Shown here: in pieces, positions 21,397 through 30,371 of the stretch | How the letters are laid out: every line of letters begins with the position of its first letter | Numbering within the stretch: position 1 is the first letter of the stretch | NCBI RefSeq assembly: GCF_028368935.1 | Contig: NZ_JAQNDK010000003.1 | Location: 186,001 to 250,000, forward strand | Source: Sorangium aterium | GTDB taxonomy: Bacteria; Myxococcota_A; Polyangia; Polyangiales; Polyangiaceae | DNA: 64,000 nucleotides | Reading direction: 5' to 3' | Translations under genes and position numbers: made by a program | Notes under the pieces: generated by a model | The model's database searches: none | Seen by the model: only the letters and a program-made list of their open reading frames with translations | What the model was told of the DNA's origin: nothing

Positions 21397-21473
21397 GGCC
21401 GAAGCCTACCATGTCCGACGCGCGACGCGCGTTGCCCTGGCACGTCGGCTCTGGTGTACTTGGCTCCCCTAGC

Positions 21474-22370
21474 GTGGCGAAGCAAGAGAACGATCATCGG
21501 CAGACGCTCGTCACCTGCACCTCGATCGCCCCGCCGGTGCTGCCGGTGGCGCCTGGCACCGCGTGTCTGGTGGTGATCTACGGCACCGAGCTCGGGCGCC
21601 GCATCGCGCTAGGGACCGGGGCAATCGAGTGTGGGCGCGCGATACAGACCGATATCCCGCTCGACGACGACGCGGTGAGCCGGCGTCATGCGCGCATCTC
21701 CTGGACGGGGATGAGCTACGTTGTCCGCGATCTCGGCTCGACCAATGGCACCTACGTGAACGACGTCTCCGTCGATGAGCGCGCCCTCAGGGACGGCGAC
21801 CAGGTGAAGATCGGCCGGACGATCTTCAAGTTCATCCAGGGTGGGAACGTCGAGCTCTCGTATCACGAGGAGATCTACCGGCTGATGACCTTCGACGGTC
21901 TGACGCAGGTCCACAACAAGCGCTCCTTCGAGGTCGCGCTGGAGCGCGAGGTATCGCGGGCTTGCCGCTACCATCGCCACCTCGCGCTCATCATGTTCGA
22001 CATCGATCACTTCAAGAACATCAACGACACCCGCGGGCACCTCACGGGCGACGCCGTGCTCCGCCAGATGGCCGCGCTCGCCGCCGCGAACGTCCGCCGC
22101 GACGACGTCCTCGCGCGCGTCGGCGGGGAGGAGTTCGCGCTGCTCGTGCCGGAGATCGCCCTCGACGGCGCCCGCCTGGTCGCCGAGAAGCTGCGCGCGC
22201 TCGTGGAGCGCACGCCGTTCCGCTTCGAGGATGGCGAGGTCGCCGTCACCGCGAGCTTCGGGGTCGCCGCCGTCACGCCGGACGCGCCTGTCTCGCCGAT
22301 GGAGCTCTACCGCCGCGCCGACGAGCGGCTCTACCATGCGAAGAAGGCCGGGCGGAACCGCGTGATGTGA
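21474..22370 (+). CDS. FHA domain diguanylate cyclase (GGDEF)
   Basis: 298 residues. An N-terminal FHA phosphothreonine-binding domain (CGRAIQTDIPLDDDAVSRRHARISW ... DLGSTNGTYVN) is joined to a GGDEF domain with an intact active site RVGGEEFALLVPE and substrate motifs FDIDHFKNINDTRGHLTGD. RRDD stands five residues before GGEEF, a complete RxxD inhibitory site, so c-di-GMP product inhibition is expected. The protein is cytoplasmic, and the FHA domain suggests recruitment by a phosphorylated Ser/Thr kinase target. GTG at 21474 is preferred because ATG at 21411 would leave only 14 bases to the divergent DUF3105 start and adds non-homologous residues; it remains possible. Confidence 0.9.
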   Translation: MAKQENDHRQTLVTCTSIAPPVLPVAPGTACLVVIYGTELGRRIALGTGAIECGRAIQTDIPLDDDAVSRRHARISWTGMSYVVRDLGSTNGTYVNDVSVDERALRDGDQVKIGRTIFKFIQGGNVELSYHEEIYRLMTFDGLTQVHNKRSFEVALEREVSRACRYHRHLALIMFDIDHFKNINDTRGHLTGDAVLRQMAALAAANVRRDDVLARVGGEEFALLVPEIALDGARLVAEKLRALVERTPFRFEDGEVAVTASFGVAAVTPDAPVSPMELYRRADERLYHAKKAGRNRVM

Positions 22371-22386: not shown

Positions 22387-23607
22387 TCAGGGCGAGGCAG
22401 CCGGGGCGGAGCAGTCTCGCGGCGCGGCGCCGTTGAGGATCCACGCGGACAGGATGTCCATGCCGTCCACGTAGGGCGTTGTGTACTGATCGTCCGGTGT
22501 CTGGGGGTCCTGGGGGTGGAACCAGAATATGGGGTTTGAAGGCGGGGGCGGCATCGGCATTCCCACGACGAACGCCGCCTGCAGCCGCTCGTTCTCCTGG
22601 CGGAGCTTCTCCGCCGCATCGGCGGGCAAGGAGGGGTCGACCGCGATCTGCCCGATGAGGATCTTGTAGAGCAGGTAGCTGTTCCCCGGGTTTCCCGGGT
22701 CGATGAGCGGCATGGCCCTGCCGAAGCGCGCAGGGGATGCCTCCCCCACGTGCGCCTTCTCGCCCATCTGGGTCTGGTGCGCGGTGCGCCCGATCGCGGT
22801 CTCGAGCAGCGGATCGAGCTGGTTGAACGCCGTGCCCAGGTTCAGGTCCAGCCCGGCGGCGGCGCTCGCGCCGTTGTGGCACCCGAAGCAGCCATAGAAG
22901 AGGTGGTACGCGGCGCCCCTCACGCAGGCGATGCACGTCGGATCCGCGGGAGCGTCGCCCTGGCAAGCGTCCGTGCGCATGACGCACTCGAGGTCTCGCT
23001 GGCAGAAGAAGTCGCCGCTCGGCGGGCGCTCCGGCATCGCCTGGGGCGGGTTCGTCGCCGCGACGGAGAACTCGATGCGCGTGTTGCCGTCGAGGGGCGC
23101 GCCGTCGAACGCGCGGATGCCGGACGGCGCAGCCTCGTCCGCCGGCTTGAAGACGGTCAGCGCATACCGGGTCCCGGGAACCAGGCCCGGCATGCCCTCG
23201 ATCTGGCGGAAGATGACCTCCCGCTGGACAGGGTTGTACGTGGGCGCGAGGGCGATCGGATTGACGCAGTCCGCGTAGGTCTGGACCGTGGCCAGATCGC
23301 CCGAGACGCACACGGACTCGGCGCCGACCGTGGCGCTCACCGAGCTCGGCAGCAGGAAGCGATCGAACTTCAGCACGAAGCTCGCTGTCGACAGGACCTC
23401 GGTCGTGCCGGCGGGATCGAGCGCGGTGCGGACGGGCTGGTAATTCTGGTCGAGGCTGGTCGTGGCGCGTGCCTCGATCAGCTGGACAGGAGGGGCGTCG
23501 ATCGGCTGGAGCGTGGCCTCCCCCACGTCGCAGCCGGCCATCGCGAGGGCCGCCTGCAGACAGAGGGGGAGGGGGGCGAGGCGCGTCGCGCGAGCCAGCG
23601 TGCTCAG
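22387..23607 (-). CDS. c-type cytochrome domain lipoprotein, one heme site
   Basis: 406 residues if started at CTG 23607. The N-terminus STLARATRLAPLPLCLQAAL then AMAGC forms a signal peptide with a lipobox-like end; the first in-frame ATG (23541) falls inside it at MAGC and would remove the export signal, and no ATG, GTG or TTG exists further upstream before the overlapping gene. The CTG shares its TG with the TGA of the upstream 84-residue gene (CTGA overlap), implying translational coupling. Residues about 40-165 resemble a bacterial Ig-like domain (VLKFDRFLLPSSV); the second half holds a single heme-binding site CFGCH and ends in ILSAWILNGAAPRDC, usual for cytochrome c-like domains of myxobacterial surface lipoproteins. 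Part of the porin-cytochrome group. Confidence 0.75.
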   Translation of the reverse strand: MSTLARATRLAPLPLCLQAALAMAGCDVGEATLQPIDAPPVQLIEARATTSLDQNYQPVRTALDPAGTTEVLSTASFVLKFDRFLLPSSVSATVGAESVCVSGDLATVQTYADCVNPIALAPTYNPVQREVIFRQIEGMPGLVPGTRYALTVFKPADEAAPSGIRAFDGAPLDGNTRIEFSVAATNPPQAMPERPPSGDFFCQRDLECVMRTDACQGDAPADPTCIACVRGAAYHLFYGCFGCHNGASAAAGLDLNLGTAFNQLDPLLETAIGRTAHQTQMGEKAHVGEASPARFGRAMPLIDPGNPGNSYLLYKILIGQIAVDPSLPADAAEKLRQENERLQAAFVVGMPMPPPPSNPIFWFHPQDPQTPDDQYTTPYVDGMDILSAWILNGAAPRDCSAPAASP

Positions 23608-23858
23608 CTCTCGGAGTAGAGCGAGAGCTGCTCGCGGACGACCTTTTCGTTCACCCCGGACTGGATGTGCTCCTTGAGACAGTCGGCCAGCGTGATCAGC
23701 ATGTCGTCTACCCCTTTCTCCTCGATGAGCTTCGACAAAAGTTGGCGTGCCTCCCGTCCGTCGTCCTCGCGGAGGAAGCCCCGCACTGTCTCCAGCGTGA
23801 TTTCCCCCTGGAAATCGAGATAGAGGTTGTCGATCAGGTACTTGATCAGCTCCTTCAC
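23604..23858 (-). CDS. small conserved-looking helical protein
   Basis: 84 residues, not recognised. Mostly helical and charged (MKELIKYLIDNLYLDFQGEI, LREDDGREARQLLSKLIEEK, VDDMLITLADCLKEHI). No signal peptide or heme motif. GTG at 23858 has AAGGAGA six bases upstream, a good ribosome-binding site, and the stop overlaps the CTG start of the cytochrome lipoprotein. It is out of step with its secreted neighbours and may be a cytoplasmic assembly or regulatory factor. Confidence 0.75.
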   Translation of the reverse strand: MKELIKYLIDNLYLDFQGEITLETVRGFLREDDGREARQLLSKLIEEKGVDDMLITLADCLKEHIQSGVNEKVVREQLSLYSES

Positions 23859-23910
23859 GCCCGTTCTCCTTGGCGTTCGCGGCGATCGTTAGGGAAGCCG
23901 CGCGCACTTC

Positions 23911-23940
23911 GCTATACCCGTCGCTGGAAGGCCAGGGCAA
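23911..23940 (-). promoter_or_regulatory. possible sigma-70-like promoter for the 84-residue gene
   Basis: Reading leftward: -35 TTGCCC (23940-23935), 18-base spacer, -10 TATAGC (23916-23911), about 50 bases before the GTG. It lies in the only AT-richer gap of the cytochrome cluster and would allow the last two genes to be expressed apart from the porin and multiheme genes. Match is moderate. Confidence 0.35.
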
Positions 23941-23966
23941 GGAATATACTGACGGATTTTGACTTT

Positions 23967-25415
23967 TCATTGGCACCGCTGCACGAACCTGTCGCTCGAC
24001 TGATGGCACACCAGGCACGGACGCGGGTTCCGGGAGAACGCCGTCTTGCACTTGCTCTCGAACCCGAGCGGGTGCGGGTTCAGCCCTTGCCCGCCTGACG
24101 CCCCGCGCGTCGCGTGGCAGGTCGCGCAGTCCCGCTCGGTGTGGCAGGAAACGCACGCATTCAGGTTTCGCTCTGCTTCCCAGGCGTGGTGCTTCGCGCC
24201 GCGTGGCGCTGTGGTCCACTCCGCCGGCGGGGGATGGAAGCGGCGCCCCGTGGGCCGCGCTGCGCTCGGCGCGTCGCGCGCCACGCCCGTCCGCCGGTGA
24301 CAGTCCGCACAGAACGTCTGCTCCTGATGGCAGCTCACGCAGCGAGGATTGTCCTGCCGGGCCGCTTGCGGGTGCATCGAGAGGAAGTCGTTCGGGTGGA
24401 CGTTGCGCGGACGGATCTTCCCGTCGTGGCAGTCGGTGCAGTAGTTCGCGCTGTGGCATGACCCGCAGAAGGCGCTGTCGTTCGCGGCGATCTGCCTGTG
24501 CCGCTCGAGCCAGTCGGGCGTGTGCCCCGCGTTGTGCAGCCACGCGGGCGGCAGCAGATCGCCCGTGGCGAACGCCGTCACGAGCCGCCCGTCGGGGCGC
24601 GTCACGTGGCAGACGTCGCAGTCGCTCTTCGCCTCACCCTGGGCCGCGCCGCTCATGTTATGGCACGTGAAGCAGCCGGCCATGCGCGGCAGTTGGTCCC
24701 GGGTAGCGAGCTCGATCCGATCGACGCGGCCGTGGCACTGGCTGCACTTGATGTTCCGGCTCACGTGCTTCGCGTGAGGGAAGCGGAGGTTCGCGTGCGG
24801 CAGCACGAGCGGCGCCACCTTTCCGTCGCTGCCAGCGTTCTCCCCGATATGGCAGTACGCACACTGTCCGTTCTCGTTCGTCCCCGCCTTCACCTGGGTG
24901 AGGTCGGAGTGATCGACATCATGACAGTTGTCGCAAGTCTCGCTCGGCTTCGGCAGCAGCCGGTCCGTCACCGCGCCGCTCGTGTAGGCCGCGCCGTGGC
25001 ACGACTTGCACGTCTGCTTGAGCCCCTTGACGTGCTTCTTGTGGTTGAAGCGGATCGTCAGCGTTTGCGGGGGATAGATCTCGTCGCTCGGGACCGGGGT
25101 CGCGCTCGTCCCGGGAGGCATCCACGCCAGGGGCACCTCCGCGTCGGCGGGCATCGGGTGGAGGCCCGACGTGTACCCGCCGTGCGGCGCCTTCGCAGGC
25201 GCTTCTCCCTCGGCGTCGCCTTCGTCCGCGTCGCCATCGGCCGCCTCGGCGCTGTCGTCGCCTGCTGCCGCCGGCGGCTTCGGCTGGGCAGCCGCCTCGG
25301 GGCCCACGATCGCGAGCGCCAGCGCGCCCAGGCACGCGACGATCGCGACCCATCCAGGGACGACCCTCGCCTCGTTTCGCCGAGCGCGGCGCCGGCCGTC
25401 CTGTCTTGCGTCCAT
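23967..25415 (-). CDS. 13-heme c-type cytochrome
   Basis: 482 residues, exported. A basic N-terminus and hydrophobic segment (WVAIVACLGALALAIVG, about residues 21-37, then AAAQ) form a signal sequence. The mature part has 13 CxxCH heme sites (CKSCH, CDNCH, CAYCH, CSQCH, CFTCH, CDVCH, CGSCH, CTDCH, CVSCH, CADCH, CVSCH, CATCH, CLVCH) and many extra His for axial ligation, including NHKKHVKG and FPHAKHVSRN, as in cytochrome c3/c7-like multiheme electron carriers. ATG at 25415 has GAGGA 8 bases upstream; GTG at 25430, which overlaps the porin stop (GTGA), is an alternative. The close link with a porin-like barrel suggests an electron wire plugged into it, like MtrA in MtrB. Confidence 0.9.
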   Translation of the reverse strand: MDARQDGRRRARRNEARVVPGWVAIVACLGALALAIVGPEAAAQPKPPAAAGDDSAEAADGDADEGDAEGEAPAKAPHGGYTSGLHPMPADAEVPLAWMPPGTSATPVPSDEIYPPQTLTIRFNHKKHVKGLKQTCKSCHGAAYTSGAVTDRLLPKPSETCDNCHDVDHSDLTQVKAGTNENGQCAYCHIGENAGSDGKVAPLVLPHANLRFPHAKHVSRNIKCSQCHGRVDRIELATRDQLPRMAGCFTCHNMSGAAQGEAKSDCDVCHVTRPDGRLVTAFATGDLLPPAWLHNAGHTPDWLERHRQIAANDSAFCGSCHSANYCTDCHDGKIRPRNVHPNDFLSMHPQAARQDNPRCVSCHQEQTFCADCHRRTGVARDAPSAARPTGRRFHPPPAEWTTAPRGAKHHAWEAERNLNACVSCHTERDCATCHATRGASGGQGLNPHPLGFESKCKTAFSRNPRPCLVCHQSSDRFVQRCQ

Positions 25416-25426
25416 GCGATCCTCGC

Positions 25427-27187
25427 TCACGGCGCCACCCGCAGGTTCATGAGGCCGACGACCCGGAAGCGCTGGCCCACCAGCCGGTTCATGTCGTGCT
25501 CCCACTCGATCTTGAAATCCGCGACCTCGCCCGGCCGATACCCGGCCCCGAGGACATATCCGAACGACGTCGCGCCCCGGTCCGGCCTGAGCGGATCCTC
25601 CCAGTTGTACAGCGACATCCGCGCTCCGAGCGCGTAGCGCTGCCCGCTCAGCCGCTTCTCTCCCGAGAGATCGGCCCCCGTCCGGCGCCCGCGCTCCCCC
25701 GTCTGCAGCATCCCGCGGAGCTCGACCGACGTCGTGCGCGTGCGGTAGCGTCCCGCGAGGTTCGCGAGCACGTCGGTCGAGATCGTCGCGGCGCGGTTCT
25801 TCTCGTCGCGCGCGTAGTCGCGGAGCGCGCCGTCATTCGGATCGAGCGACGTCGCGCCGACGCAGCCTGGTTGATTTACGGCCTCACACTGGCCGGCGCC
25901 GAACTCCTCCGGGTTGCCTTCGGCGATCCACATCCGCGTGCCGCCCCAGGCCGCGACATCGATCTCGCGGGTGACGTCCACCGCCGCCCGTCCGGTGATC
26001 GTGGTGATGGGATCGTGGGTGAACCAGTTCCAGATCGAGTCCGCGTCGAACGTCGGAACGAAGTAGTCGACGTCCGCCCCCAGCGTGACGCGGCTCCCGG
26101 CGTACACCTCCAGGCCGCCGTAAAATGAGCCGACGAGCTGGTTGTAGAAGTCGTAGGTCACTCCGCCCTTGAGGCCGCCGAGATCCGGCTTGTTGATGTT
26201 GGCGGCGTACCCGAGCCGATCCTGCGAGATGCGCGACGCATCGGACGTCCGGACGCCTCCGCCCGGATCCGGGAACTGCTGGGTGACAGAGGTCCCCAGG
26301 TTGTAAACGCGGCGGTAGGTCAGGCGACCGTGGACGAAGCTCGGACCCGCGCTCTCGAGCGCGACGCCGAACGCTGGCGCCAGATCGGACGCCTGGTACG
26401 ACGGGAAATCGGCTGCACTCCCGGGCTGAGTCCGGTCATCGCCGAATCCCCGGTGGCTGCCGCGCCAGATCCCCTGCTGCTCGAAGCGCGATGTGGAGAG
26501 CGGCAGGCCGCCGCGCTGCTCGAGCCCGCCGTACGCCTCGAGTTGAACGTAGTACGGTGTCGTCACCCGGAGGAGCGCGCCGTCGAACGACCACCACCCG
26601 AGCACGTCGCTCACATACTGACGGCCGACCCGGAAGCCGAGCCACCCGCCGGCGACGTTCCGCCCTTCGACGTACGCGTACATCAGATCGATGGGCGCCT
26701 CGCGCAGCCCCGGGATGTAGCGCGAGCCGCCATCGATGCTGTAGTCGGTCTCGCCGCCCCGCTGCGCGCCGTCGAGGTGGCCATTGATCCCGAAGTCCGC
26801 GTCGAGCCGGAGCCGCACGGTCGCCGAGTAGTCGGCCTCGCCTGGGGCAGAGTCGCCCTGGAGGTTGTAGACGGCGAGCCCCAGCGTCTGAAGGAGCCGC
26901 CGCCGTTCGATGTTCGTGTCGCCCCAAGGGCTGGCGACCTCGTAGGCCTGGACGCCGGTCGTCGACTCGACCTCGAAGTCGGCTGCGGCTGCGCTGCGCG
27001 GGACGAGCGCGCAAGGCAGCAAGCACGCCACGGCCAGCGCGCGTGACAGGGGGAGGCGGCGGAGGGGGAGGCGACAGAGGGGGACGCGACGGGCGCTCCC
27101 CACGAGCGTGCCAGGGCGTGCGTCGCTGGCGTGCCGCGGACGACGTCGCGACGGAAGCTCCGCCATCCATGAGAGATGCTCAATCAC
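25427..27187 (-). CDS. outer-membrane porin-like beta-barrel of the cytochrome cluster
   Basis: 586 residues with a long N-terminal region and a signal peptide ending ALVPRSAAAA (about residue 68). The mature protein shows alternating amphipathic strands throughout with aromatic girdles: DYSATVRLRLDADFGINGH, MYAYVEGRNVAGGWLGFRVGRQYV, YYVQLEAYGGLEQRG, GRLTYRRVYNLG, LYNWEDPLRPDRGATSFGYV, ADFKIEWEHDMNRLVGQRFRVVGLMNLRV. Length and strand density suggest more than 20 strands. A C-terminal aromatic residue is absent (ends RVAP). The 13-heme gene follows with 11 bases or an overlap, so the pair are almost certainly one operon. By analogy to MtrB/PioB-type porins it could sheath the cytochrome; an ordinary substrate porin is the alternative. 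Start is uncertain; ATG at 27163 (MAELPS) is also possible. Confidence 0.8.
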   Translation of the reverse strand: MIEHLSWMAELPSRRRPRHASDARPGTLVGSARRVPLCRLPLRRLPLSRALAVACLLPCALVPRSAAAADFEVESTTGVQAYEVASPWGDTNIERRRLLQTLGLAVYNLQGDSAPGEADYSATVRLRLDADFGINGHLDGAQRGGETDYSIDGGSRYIPGLREAPIDLMYAYVEGRNVAGGWLGFRVGRQYVSDVLGWWSFDGALLRVTTPYYVQLEAYGGLEQRGGLPLSTSRFEQQGIWRGSHRGFGDDRTQPGSAADFPSYQASDLAPAFGVALESAGPSFVHGRLTYRRVYNLGTSVTQQFPDPGGGVRTSDASRISQDRLGYAANINKPDLGGLKGGVTYDFYNQLVGSFYGGLEVYAGSRVTLGADVDYFVPTFDADSIWNWFTHDPITTITGRAAVDVTREIDVAAWGGTRMWIAEGNPEEFGAGQCEAVNQPGCVGATSLDPNDGALRDYARDEKNRAATISTDVLANLAGRYRTRTTSVELRGMLQTGERGRRTGADLSGEKRLSGQRYALGARMSLYNWEDPLRPDRGATSFGYVLGAGYRPGEVADFKIEWEHDMNRLVGQRFRVVGLMNLRVAP

Positions 27188-27345: not shown

Positions 27346-28107
27346 TCAGCTGTATCCAGCGCCCTTCCGGAGCTTGCCGTCCGAGCCCACGCTGAAGCCG
27401 TTCGAGTCCTGGAGCGCCTGGCTCGCGCTGCTCCGCAGCTCGGCCGGCACCGTCCAGCCCCGGGTCATCAGCCCCTCGGCGACCTTGTTCTTCACCCGGA
27501 CCGACTCCTCGGTCGCGAGCATCTTCACCAGCGCTGGCACGCTCGCCTCATCGCCCTGGGAGAAGATGGTCTGCACGGCGTGAAACCGGACCGTCTCGTT
27601 GACGTCGTCGAGGAACCGCTCGACCGCCACCCGCACGTCGTCGCCCTTGATGTCGCCCAGCGCCATGATGAGCTGCTGCTTCGGCTCGACGTTGCGCGCA
27701 TACTCCGTGTCGAAGCGGTCGAGCAGCTGGACGAGCTCGGTCCGGTACTCGGCGTCGTCGAGCAGCGCCCGCAGGATCTTGAGCGGCCAGGTGAGCGCCT
27801 CGGCCTTGATGCAGAACTCGACAACGGCCGGCACCGCGTCCTTGCCCGCATCGACGATCCCCCGGAAAGCCAGATCCTTCTCCTCTTGATCCGTGATAGA
27901 GGGGTCGATCGAGAACGTGAAGCGCCTGAGGAGAGCCGCCGCCGCATCCGCGCTCTTCATCGCGGCGAGCGACTGGATGGCGTCGAGGCGGTCGTACGTC
28001 TGAGCGCGCTTGTCCGCGACGACCTTCGCAGGCCCGGCCACCTTCTTGTCGGAGGGGACGCCCCCGGCAGGGGGATTGCTTTTGCGGAGAAAATCGAAAA
28101 TACCCAA
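27346..28107 (-). CDS. HEAT-repeat protein
   Basis: 253 residues, cytoplasmic. The start MGIFDFLRKS is followed by a basic linker and then helical pairs of HEAT type: RLDAIQSLAAMKSADAAAALLRRF, IVDAGKDAVPAVVEFCIKAEALTWPLKILRALLDD, QLIMALGDIKGDDVRVAVERFLDDVNETVRFHAVQTIFSQGDEASVPALVKML. Likely a scaffold or adaptor; no partner is evident. It starts at TTG 28107, with AGAGG six bases upstream; no ATG is available at the homologous N-terminus. Confidence 0.8.
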   Translation of the reverse strand: MGIFDFLRKSNPPAGGVPSDKKVAGPAKVVADKRAQTYDRLDAIQSLAAMKSADAAAALLRRFTFSIDPSITDQEEKDLAFRGIVDAGKDAVPAVVEFCIKAEALTWPLKILRALLDDAEYRTELVQLLDRFDTEYARNVEPKQQLIMALGDIKGDDVRVAVERFLDDVNETVRFHAVQTIFSQGDEASVPALVKMLATEESVRVKNKVAEGLMTRGWTVPAELRSSASQALQDSNGFSVGSDGKLRKGAGYS

Positions 28108-28379
28108 CGCTGACCTCTGGTGGCTGTCCCCGCCGCCCGGTCCGAGCTACCCGGCGATCGTCACCGGATCTATAGCGGGGCGCATCTTCGTGCGCTACGG
28201 ACTCATCCGCGTCGTTCGGCTCGCTGCAGCGTGCTCTCGCCCGCCTCACGCGCCTGCCTAGCGGCTGAGCCCGTATCACATGAATCCGCGCCCCGCTAGA
28301 GTGGCTCGCGGCAGAGGGTGCTTCCCGCCTGAGCTACCCCGGGCGAACCGGCTCGGTCACCGCGAGCCGGCGCAGCCGT

Positions 28380-29258
28380 CTACTCCGTCGTCTTGATGCC
28401 GGTGGGGAACTGAATACTCAGGCTCACGGTGACCATGCTCGTGAAGTGGAATTCGCGGTCCTTGTCGTCCACCTTGCGGTCGGGGAACGCCTCGTCCGTT
28501 CCGAGCCCGTGGTTGTCGAAGCCCGAAGTATTCCATGCGAACGGCAGGGCGCGCCACTCCGCGCCGAAGCCGATGAAGTCCGACGGGTAGAAGTTCCAGC
28601 CGAGGCCGAACGTCGGTGCGAAGGCCATGCGGCTCTCGAGTCCGAAGGTCTCCGCGCAGGCGTTCTGGTTGGTCGTGCCGCACTCCTTGCGCTCCTTCAC
28701 GCCGATCGCCGCGGCTCCAGCGAAGAAGCTCACGTCGGTGTCAACGAAGAGCTCGGCGAACAGCGCCAGCTTTCCACGGAAGGGAACGACCGTGACCTGG
28801 GGCGCTGCGACCCACTGGATCTGCCCGAGCTGATCCTTCGTCAGATCGCCCTTGGTCAGGTTGACCCTGGTCAGCTGGCACGCCTTCGTGAACGGCTGGG
28901 CATCGCAGTTACGCCCGTCGATCGCGACGCGCTGGAGCTCGTCCGTCAGCCCGGCGTTGTACTGAAACCCGTACCCGCCCCAGGCGCCGAAGCCGAGCCA
29001 GTCCGTGAAGTGGTAGGTGAGCCGCAGGCCCGGCATGATCGTCCGCCGGTACTCGTCCAGCAGCGTGAACGATGCGCCTGGAGCCACCTCGAACCGCCCG
29101 GCACGGTGGAGCCGGAGCTGCCGCACGGCCGGCGCGCCGGCTAGAGGGCCCGTGAGCTGAATCTCCTGCGCCTCCGCGGGCGCAGCCGTCATCAGAAGTG
29201 CACAGCCGGTAAGCCCTGCCACCACAGTGCAGAGGCTTTGGACGAATCGACGCATCAT
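28380..29258 (-). CDS. outer-membrane beta-barrel protein (second of tandem pair; GltA/GltB-type candidate)
   Basis: 292 residues from ATG 29258 (MMRRFVQSL), with signal peptide ending TAAPAEAQ. The mature part looks like the myxobacterial outer-membrane beta-barrel family: FEVAPGASFTLLDEYRRTIMPGLRLTYHFTDWLGFGAWGGYGFQYN, VAAPQVTVVPFRGKLALFAELFVDTDVSFFAGAAAIG, FAPTFGLGWNFYPSDFIGFGAEWRALPF, and a last strand VTVSLSIQFPTGI. It resembles its neighbour at 29332-30255 in layout (RxHRxxRxEVxPxxxxxxxDxY, GxGxxFFxN), so the two arose by duplication. In Myxococcus such a pair are the gliding-motility OM proteins GltA and GltB; that identity is an inference. Alternative start ATG at 29285. The gap to the upstream barrel gene is 73 bases, so one operon. 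Confidence 0.8.
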   Translation of the reverse strand: MMRRFVQSLCTVVAGLTGCALLMTAAPAEAQEIQLTGPLAGAPAVRQLRLHRAGRFEVAPGASFTLLDEYRRTIMPGLRLTYHFTDWLGFGAWGGYGFQYNAGLTDELQRVAIDGRNCDAQPFTKACQLTRVNLTKGDLTKDQLGQIQWVAAPQVTVVPFRGKLALFAELFVDTDVSFFAGAAAIGVKERKECGTTNQNACAETFGLESRMAFAPTFGLGWNFYPSDFIGFGAEWRALPFAWNTSGFDNHGLGTDEAFPDRKVDDKDREFHFTSMVTVSLSIQFPTGIKTTE

Positions 29259-29331
29259 GCCTGTCCCCGTCTTTGGCTGAATCATCCTATGTCTCGCGCT
29301 CGGCGTCTGCGCGTCCCCACGTCCAAAGTCT

Positions 29332-30255
29332 TCACTTCGGCAGCCGGTATTCCCAGGAGAACGGCAGGAAGACCGACAGCCCGACCTGCGCCTGTACGTT
29401 GTTGGTGAAGCTCTTCCCCTCGGCGAGCCAGGTGCTCTTGTCCTGAGGGTTCGCCGCGACGCTGGGGTTCTCGAGCTCGTCGAAGAAGATGTAGTCGCTG
29501 ACCTCGAACATCGCCGCAAACCAGCGGTTGAAGAAGATGCGGAGGCCACCGCCGACGTGGAAGGAGAGCTTCGGCTTCCAGTCGAAGGTGCGGTTGTCGG
29601 GATCGACGACGGCCATGGGCCTCGTCGAGATCGCGCCGACACCGCCCAGTACGAAGAAGTCGTAGTGGAAGATGAAGTCGCTGAACCCGGCGAACTTGCC
29701 GTACGCGGGGACGTACGTGAAGTTCGCATTCGCGTTCCACTGATACTCGGTGATCGGCTCGCCGATACGCGCCGCCCTGCTCGTCTGGAAGTTGAAGTCC
29801 GACGGCGTGTTGAGCGCACCGTACCAGTTGCCGTTGACCCCGATCGCGAGGACGTTGGTGAGGTACCAGTTGACCGCGAGCCCCGGCCCGTTGTGGCCGA
29901 CGAACTGGTCGTTCATCGTCAGCCCGAAGTACGGGTTCACCTCGAAGCGGTGGTAGCGCAGCGCGTAGATCTGCTGCACCGCGTAGGTCTCGTTCTTGAG
30001 ATCCTTCGCGGCCTCCTTCTCCAAATTGATCGTGGGACACGCCGTCGGGTCGATCTTACAGATGTCCCCAAGCCCCGTTTCCTCGCCGCCATCGGTCGGG
30101 GCCGCGGGCGCCTCCACCGGCTCCGTGCCCTCGGCAGGAGTCTCTGGCTCGTCGAGGTTGATTTCCTTGGGTTGCCCTTTTGGCTGAGCCGACGCCGTAA
30201 GCGGCACCGCGACGAGCGCAGCCGCAACGAGAAGCCCCACGCGAGCCTGGTTCAT
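29332..30255 (-). CDS. outer-membrane beta-barrel protein (first of tandem pair; GltA/GltB-type candidate)
   Basis: 307 residues. Signal peptide MNQARVGLLVAAALVAVPL ends TASAQ; an acidic Pro/Glu linker and the Cys pair ICKIDPTACPTI precede the barrel: YALRYHRFEVNPYFGLTMND, GPGLAVNWYLTNVLAIGVNG, IFHYDFFVLGGVGAIST, LSFHVGGGLRIFFNRWFAAMFEVSDYIFFDEL, VQAQVGLSVFLPFSWEYRLPK. The pattern is the same family as the downstream barrel. ATG at 30255 has GGAAGG eight bases upstream; ATG 30261 and TTG 30270 are too close to that site. A promoter is seen at 30372-30401. Role in gliding is proposed because GltA/GltB in Myxococcus are an adjacent pair of this type and a glt locus lies 8 kb away. Confidence 0.8.
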   Translation of the reverse strand: MNQARVGLLVAAALVAVPLTASAQPKGQPKEINLDEPETPAEGTEPVEAPAAPTDGGEETGLGDICKIDPTACPTINLEKEAAKDLKNETYAVQQIYALRYHRFEVNPYFGLTMNDQFVGHNGPGLAVNWYLTNVLAIGVNGNWYGALNTPSDFNFQTSRAARIGEPITEYQWNANANFTYVPAYGKFAGFSDFIFHYDFFVLGGVGAISTRPMAVVDPDNRTFDWKPKLSFHVGGGLRIFFNRWFAAMFEVSDYIFFDELENPSVAANPQDKSTWLAEGKSFTNNVQAQVGLSVFLPFSWEYRLPK

Positions 30256-30371
30256 CGCCATCCCTTCCAAAGTCCGTGCGATGCGAGCGATCGCGATCGA
30301 TCGCCCAGGTAGTACAGCTTCCTAACTACTCGAATTCATTAAATAATTCGGTCAACCGCCAAGCCCGACGG

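Follow-up and report, generated by a model that had tools for sequence, protein, structure and literature searches.

A 64,000-nucleotide stretch of the Sorangium aterium genome (contig NZ_JAQNDK010000003.1, positions 186,001 to 250,000), hereafter the window, in whose coordinates all features are given, carries on its minus strand four genes encoding a porin-like beta-barrel, a 13-heme c-type cytochrome, a protein of 84 residues (p84) and a mono-heme lipoprotein. The porin and the cytochrome probably form an electron conduit across the outer membrane, a reading to which we assign a probability of roughly 0.7. Judged from the sequences, the system is best read as a diverged porin-cytochrome conduit in which the outer multiheme cytochrome would have been replaced by a mono-heme, immunoglobulin (Ig)-like lipoprotein; that this lipoprotein is the outer end of the conduit is, taken separately, an even proposition.

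The initial annotation had described four leftward genes, among them a barrel of about 520 mature residues, a cytochrome with 13 CxxCH motifs that either overlaps the porin gene or lies 11 bases from it, and a lipoprotein with a single heme. This layout holds, positions included: the mature part of the barrel has about 517 residues, the cytochrome contains exactly 13 CxxCH motifs with both start options confirmed, and the lipoprotein combines the lipobox LAMAGC with one CxxCH motif, CFGCH.

The porin and the 13-heme cytochrome

The barrel gene occupies positions 25,427 to 27,187 (minus strand), of which about 25,430 to 26,980 encode the 517-residue mature part. An AlphaFold2 model built from 72 sequences (mean predicted local distance difference test score, pLDDT, 88; predicted template modelling score 0.82) contains 22 long strands and no plug, and this predicted barrel corresponds to the integral outer-membrane beta-barrel of the conduit description in the excerpted text of PMC6148476. 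By the ideal-barrel formula, with assumed shear numbers, 22 strands give a backbone radius of 20.0 Å as compared with 23.5 Å for 26 strands. The mature barrel has two cysteines, at 365 and 373, and no CxxC, in contrast to MtrB, which carries an N-terminal CxxC.

The cytochrome gene lies at 23,967 to 25,430 (minus strand). Its GTG start shares four bases with the porin stop codon, and an alternative ATG at 25,415 would leave a gap of 11 bases. Its 13 CxxCH motifs and a hydrophobic N-terminal export signal, recognized by eye, agree with the multiheme periplasmic c-type cytochrome of the same description (PMC6148476, in excerpt), the periplasmic site being predicted; the protein matches PF14522 (4e-19). 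In an alignment of 60 cytochromes, the 13 CxxCH columns and exactly 13 other histidine columns are conserved at 92% or above, with all remaining histidine columns at 57% or below. This is the count expected for 13 bis-histidine hemes, and it suggests that all 13 are probably hemes of a bis-histidine wire. Since each heme has a conserved candidate histidine partner, no open catalytic heme is evident, and a catalytic multiheme reductase is disfavoured by the same match of 13 hemes to 13 candidate partners.

The two halves of the cytochrome have different relatives. The part with hemes 1 to 6 (24,606 to 25,010, minus strand), which falls in the well-predicted N-terminal half of the model, resembles ActA of alternative complex III in both sequence and fold (against 6f0k_A: Z 6.9, root-mean-square deviation (rmsd) 4.5, 144 residues aligned, 24% identity). 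The Sorangium protein differs from ActA in having 13 hemes and in adjoining a porin, and no subunit of alternative complex III is seen among the four genes. The part with hemes 7 to 13 (24,003 to 24,467, minus strand) is what the short relatives retain: in loci L111, L112 and L113 the cytochrome has seven CxxCH motifs, matches this half only and still adjoins a porin, and in further genomes the matches to the cytochrome profile are likewise limited to this half. From these seven-heme relatives beside a porin, we infer that hemes 7 to 13 are the barrel part of the protein, probably placed in or near the barrel lumen. The short cytochrome of L112 is itself lipoprotein-like.

A porin match was found in 45 of the 59 genomes searched, the window's own included, and in 32 of the 37 that belong to the window's family; culturable Sorangium, Polyangium and Minicystis are among the carriers. 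Loci were fetched at the order level for 40 of the 45 genomes, and the porin adjoins the cytochrome in every one, p84 and the lipoprotein being found in 33 each. The cytochrome has 13 CxxCH motifs in 36 of these loci, 12 in three and seven in one short frame. Wider loci, chosen by porin match, gave the same picture, with the two genes side by side in 21 of 21 (13 hemes in 18, seven in three). Among 80 loci from named genomes or metagenome-assembled genomes (MAGs), the porin is present in 77, the cytochrome in 80, p84 and the lipoprotein in 76 each and all four genes in 72; seven of the eight incomplete loci are at contig ends, and the eighth, L195, lacks p84. Across 282 genomes drawn over the phylum, the porin profile (E 1e-3) matched in 99 and the cytochrome profile (E 1e-20) in 126, the latter including a paralogous family. 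The porin search scored few candidates per genome and missed at least one genome, G132, in which a porin was found later, so that the counted absences may hold misses. The expectation that the cluster would be conserved as a unit is thus borne out for porin and cytochrome (40/40 and 21/21), but not for p84 and the lipoprotein, which as a pair lie elsewhere in at least seven genomes.

The paralogous family provides a second line of evidence. Twelve places with a second barrel/cytochrome pair were fetched from related genomes, one of which, L254, is of the main type. In all of the remaining 11, a gene with at least eight CxxCH motifs adjoins the cytochrome or the porin, and the porin profile recognizes the barrel in six. 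All three of the adjoining cytochromes that were scanned contain TIGR01904 (a CxxxxCH/CxxCH domain). Eight adjoining cytochromes were inspected by eye: those of L245, L250 and L252 have a strict lipobox, and in the other five a cysteine follows a hydrophobic stretch but departs from the strict pattern. The pair in L128 and L130, loci of two further families, is preceded by lipoprotein-like cytochromes that have 28 and 34 CxxCH motifs, a lipobox and TIGR01904, and six loci (L246, L248, L249, L250, L251 and L252) look canonical, with a porin, a cytochrome with 12 to 14 CxxCH motifs and a further one with 8 to 16. Profile-profile comparison aligned the main and paralogous barrels with a probability of 99.2 (E 2e-19) and the cytochromes with a probability of 100 (E 1e-52), hemes in register, as compared with 0.2 for unrelated barrels of the window region that served as a control. 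By these profiles the main pair is homologous to a pair that sits beside other multiheme cytochromes, with 8 to 34 CxxCH motifs, as in canonical porin-cytochrome conduits. The window's own genome has just one cytochrome match at E 1e-20, and by that test it possesses the mono-heme type alone.

These results bear on the possibility that the barrel is a solute or substrate porin merely co-transcribed with a periplasmic multiheme redox protein, its lumen not filled by the cytochrome. The generic structural matches of the barrel (FimD, siderophore receptors and porins) would fit such an arrangement, as would the resemblance of the N-terminal half of the cytochrome to ActA, a subunit of a membrane complex. 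It is nevertheless improbable given the adjacency of the pair in every locus of both sets, the multiheme cytochromes beside its homologues and a conserved candidate partner for each of the 13 hemes, with no open catalytic heme evident.

Described systems, here as given in excerpts of the sources, resemble the pair in some respects and differ from it in others. Pcc porins are described with 18 to 22 predicted strands and their periplasmic cytochromes with 5 to 14 hemes, whereas MtrB, MtoB and PioB have 28 motifs (PMC4245776). Geobacter OmbB-OmaB-OmcB (PMC4245776, PMC6148476), likened here by description and not by sequence, is similar in barrel strand range, in the adjacent multiheme cytochrome and in having a redox-cofactor lipoprotein; it differs in that the Sorangium outer lipoprotein would be mono-heme rather than multiheme and the Sorangium wire has 13 hemes. 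Geobacter ExtHIJKL (PMC6148476) likewise has a surface lipoprotein other than a multiheme cytochrome, together with a small extra protein, but ExtH is a rhodanese-family lipoprotein and the periplasmic cytochrome has five hemes, while p84 of Sorangium is probably no conduit part. The two-gene Pcc clusters of Anaeromyxobacter and Kuenenia encode cytochromes with 12 to 14 hemes (Shi et al., PMC4245776). That of Anaeromyxobacter (Group IV) is likewise myxobacterial and combines a porin with a multiheme cytochrome of similar size, the excerpted account describing no lipoprotein; homology with the Sorangium pair is likely. Some Myxococcota MAGs encode extracellular multiheme proteins, according to part of PMC11495043. 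Our searches of the open literature, which most subscription papers lie outside, returned no description of such a system in Polyangiales.

With MtrCAB, PioAB and MtoAB the Sorangium pair shares a presumed working principle, but it has 22 predicted strands as against 28 motifs (PMC4245776, in part) and matches neither MtrB/PioB nor DmsE/MtrA models. The cytochrome has no match to TIGR03508 (MtrA/DmsE) at E values up to 1, and its family profile scores 17.8 bits (E 0.013) against MtrA (6r2q_A). Neither Pfam nor NCBIfam gave the window porin a match above cut-off. An MtrB/PioB-type porin is rejected by profile searches of both databases, each of which we take to contain MtrB/PioB models. Of the annotation's reading, a porin-multiheme cytochrome conduit with a mono-heme lipoprotein is well supported by comparison, on the strength of strand number, the 13 histidines, linkage, homology and co-occurrence; a Mtr or Pio type finds no support in the sequences.

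Several points weigh against the conduit, or against its proposed outer end. MtrB/PioB models are matched neither by the window porin in Pfam and NCBIfam (to E 1) nor by 22 members of its family in Pfam (at 0.01), and the porin has no match to a PDB sequence, even as a profile of 22 relatives. The structural matches of the barrel model are those of generic large barrels: among the matches listed, the most residues (324 to 401 of 517) are aligned with ushers and TonB-type receptors, which we take to be 24- and 22-strand barrels respectively, such as FimD (Z 16.0, rmsd 5.1, 354 aligned), PirA (Z 14.7, rmsd 4.9, 375 aligned) and BtuB (Z 13.9, rmsd 4.7, 372 aligned). Within the same list, the alignment of 18-strand porins runs from residue 1 to about 440, and that of VDAC covers the whole model but with only some 240 residues aligned; that MtrB is not in the list excludes nothing. 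The model of the cytochrome is poor in its C-terminal half, to which hemes 7 to 13 belong, with blocks at pLDDT 40 to 65, and all models are of single chains. An outer end with a single heme is unlike the multiheme conduits described. To our knowledge, Sorangium is aerobic and no reduction phenotype has been reported for it. The limits on the lipoprotein counts, given below, belong with these points.

The mono-heme lipoprotein

The lipoprotein gene extends from 22,387 to about 23,607 (minus strand), and its product combines an Ig-like part with one motif for a c-type heme. In an alignment of 30 members, the lipobox cysteine (C31, codon 23,530 to 23,532), both heme cysteines and the heme histidine are invariant, and Met357 is conserved in at least 90% of the rows. 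The heme motif of the window protein, CFGCH, is encoded at 22,876 to 22,890, and a CX2-5CH motif is present in all 47 family rows examined (L052 from the printed alignment only). In most relatives the motif is CX4CH or similar, so that plain CxxCH counting overlooks the heme; the heme loss in relatives hinted at by such a count is ruled out by the CX2-5CH motif in every aligned row. Pfam searches at E 0.05 found Big_5, an Ig-like domain, in 17 of the 30 members and PSCyt1 in five, the window protein itself having PSCyt1 only, below cut-off (E 0.1), and no Big_5. As had been proposed, the protein is unlike the multiheme OmcA/MtrC class, with one heme motif and no match to OmcA/MtrC models in Pfam or NCBIfam.

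The association of this family with the conduit was examined in the 58 genomes of the class within the sample, at E 1e-20 for the lipoprotein and 1e-60 for the cytochrome, cut-offs that were set after the lists had been seen. Full-length lipoprotein is present in 37 of the 45 genomes with a main-type conduit and in none of the 13 without it (Fisher P 6e-8, uncorrected for kinship); the genomes are related, and the effective sample is accordingly smaller than the count. Five of the 13 (G040, G049, G054, G179 and G223) carry the paralogous cytochrome (E 1e-28 to 1e-35) and hence lack the main type rather than every conduit, which indicates that the lipoprotein goes with the main type and not with conduits in general. 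The same pattern is seen within one family, f5, in which the lipoprotein occurs in all three genomes with the main type and in none of the eight others. Partial matches to one half or the other of the lipoprotein profile occur at E 1e-3 in 218 of 282 genomes, as expected, such domains being common.

In seven genomes (G041, G055, G123, G202, G228, G274 and G300) the p84 and lipoprotein genes lie together at least about 18 kb from the porin and cytochrome genes, the separation in G274 being 421 kb on one contig. That the lipoprotein co-occurs with the conduit even when unlinked speaks for a joint function, and, with the invariant lipobox cysteine and the CX2-5CH motif, it gives the protein the features of a conduit's redox lipoprotein, its location and heme loading being predicted. 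Co-occurrence does not show, however, on which side of the membrane the protein resides. Proteins with a lipobox and an Ig-like domain are often surface proteins. By analogy with two-gene Pcc clusters, the lipoprotein could instead face the periplasm and act in electron donation or in assembly, leaving the porin and cytochrome to exchange electrons outside by themselves; the two-gene clusters of Anaeromyxobacter and Kuenenia, with their 12- to 14-heme cytochromes (PMC4245776, in part), are a precedent, and eight of the 45 genomes with a main-type conduit lack full-length members of the lipoprotein family, a point that also weakens the case for an outer end. We regard a periplasmic lipoprotein as rather unlikely, and retain the outer position as the preferred one.

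p84 and the start of the lipoprotein gene

The p84 gene (23,604 to 23,858, minus strand) encodes 84 residues in which no signal peptide was seen. Pfam and NCBIfam gave no match to it, and none in the PDB was significant; its length is constant in the class, with a mean column identity of 74% over 21 rows. It is present in 50 of the 58 class genomes, with no association with the conduit (Fisher P 1.0), and in 53 of 282 genomes across the phylum. Since the presence of p84 does not depend on the conduit, p84 probably does not belong to it, and a role as conduit subunit is rejected by this presence pattern. The lipoprotein gene nevertheless lies within 500 bases of p84 in all 37 genomes that have it, although one genome outside the 58-genome sample (locus L070/L195) has the lipoprotein without a p84 match. 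Most simply, p84 may be seen as belonging to the core genes of the class, with the start of the lipoprotein gene located in its 3' end.

In the window, no in-frame ATG, GTG or TTG lies near the signal peptide of the lipoprotein, and in 56 of 68 parseable loci, the window among them, none occurs in the stretch that begins 24 bases ahead of the p84 stop and ends at a usable distance from the lipobox. Lipoboxes were located for this comparison by a simple pattern, which was wrong in some loci such as L207. At the p84 stop itself, 63 of 75 loci have a CTGA in which the stop would overlap a CTG start (23,604 to 23,607 in the window, minus-strand reading), three have TTG, one has GTG two bases on and eight have none of these; among distant relatives, L138 has GTG at the same place, and L141 and L142 have ATG two bases on. 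The simplest reading of these sequences is a conserved CTG start, reached by termination-reinitiation. A programmed frameshift between p84 and the lipoprotein would fit less well, since the lipoprotein is in the -1 frame relative to p84 in 88 of 97 rows and at +1 or 0 in nine, and such mixed frames suit reinitiation better than a single frameshift. In about a dozen loci, just 10 to 12 residues separate the junction from the lipobox, which a CTG start alone explains poorly, so that a frameshift stays a less likely alternative. The last p84 codon is TCG in one of 74 serine-ending genes, as compared with 34% TCG plus TCA among the serine codons of the neighbouring cytochrome genes; the proportion is one of eight among serine-ending p84 genes without a lipoprotein, and the TCG bias may thus not concern the start.

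Two neighbouring regions accompany the cluster in some relatives. Upstream, at 27,346 to 30,270, lie a HEAT-repeat protein and two barrel-looking outer-membrane proteins, all three of which are syntenic with the conduit in nine of 40 loci. An FHA-GGDEF diguanylate cyclase-like gene, identified by eye (21,411 to 22,370, plus strand), converges on the cluster and adjoins it in several relatives. A search of the window's genome for three electron-source families found one match of the NrfH type and a few of the c7 or paired-CXXCH type, with no link to the conduit shown.

A possible one-electron port in aerobic myxobacteria

In the arrangement we propose, the barrel of an outer-membrane electron conduit would be formed by the porin and its wire by the 13-heme cytochrome. 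The cytochrome would enter the 22-strand barrel from the periplasmic side, so that hemes 7 to 13 would probably lie in the lumen or close to it, and hemes 1 to 6, in the ActA-like part, would project into the periplasm and there meet an electron carrier. On the outer face, the canonical multiheme surface cytochrome would give way to a lipid-anchored Ig-like protein whose one heme, possibly with histidine/methionine ligation, exchanges single electrons with a partner; p84 would stand apart as a core gene of the class, with the lipoprotein gene coupled to it.

Electrons might also flow inward through the same parts, a variant that departs from the above in direction alone. By analogy with PioAB and MtoAB, the source of electrons for the lipoprotein, and through it for aerobic respiration, could be Fe(II) or Mn(II), reduced humics or a partner cell. 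Histidine/methionine hemes, as in class I cytochromes c, would have a higher potential than bis-histidine surface hemes, and the conservation of Met357 would be compatible with such a heme. Myxobacteria are called aerobes in the excerpted text of PMC4765838. The methionine ligation is putative, and inward flow is put forward only tentatively.

Most work on extracellular electron transfer concerns organisms that reduce metals or oxidise Fe(II). If the porin, the cytochrome and the lipoprotein do act as proposed, trans-outer-membrane electron exchange would extend to aerobic soil myxobacteria, with a porin match in 32 of the 37 family genomes searched, and the system would serve as a natural experiment in conduit function with a single heme at the outer end. 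As Sorangium, Polyangium and Minicystis are culturable, this three-gene system could be tested in culture. More speculatively, and with less than even confidence, the family may represent a widespread conduit of the Polyangia in which the multiheme outer cytochrome gave way to an Ig-like lipoprotein with only one heme, perhaps of high potential, and with a gene that lacks a canonical start and is coupled to p84; a wire for mineral respiration would thereby have become a one-electron port, the partner being soluble, humic or a cell.

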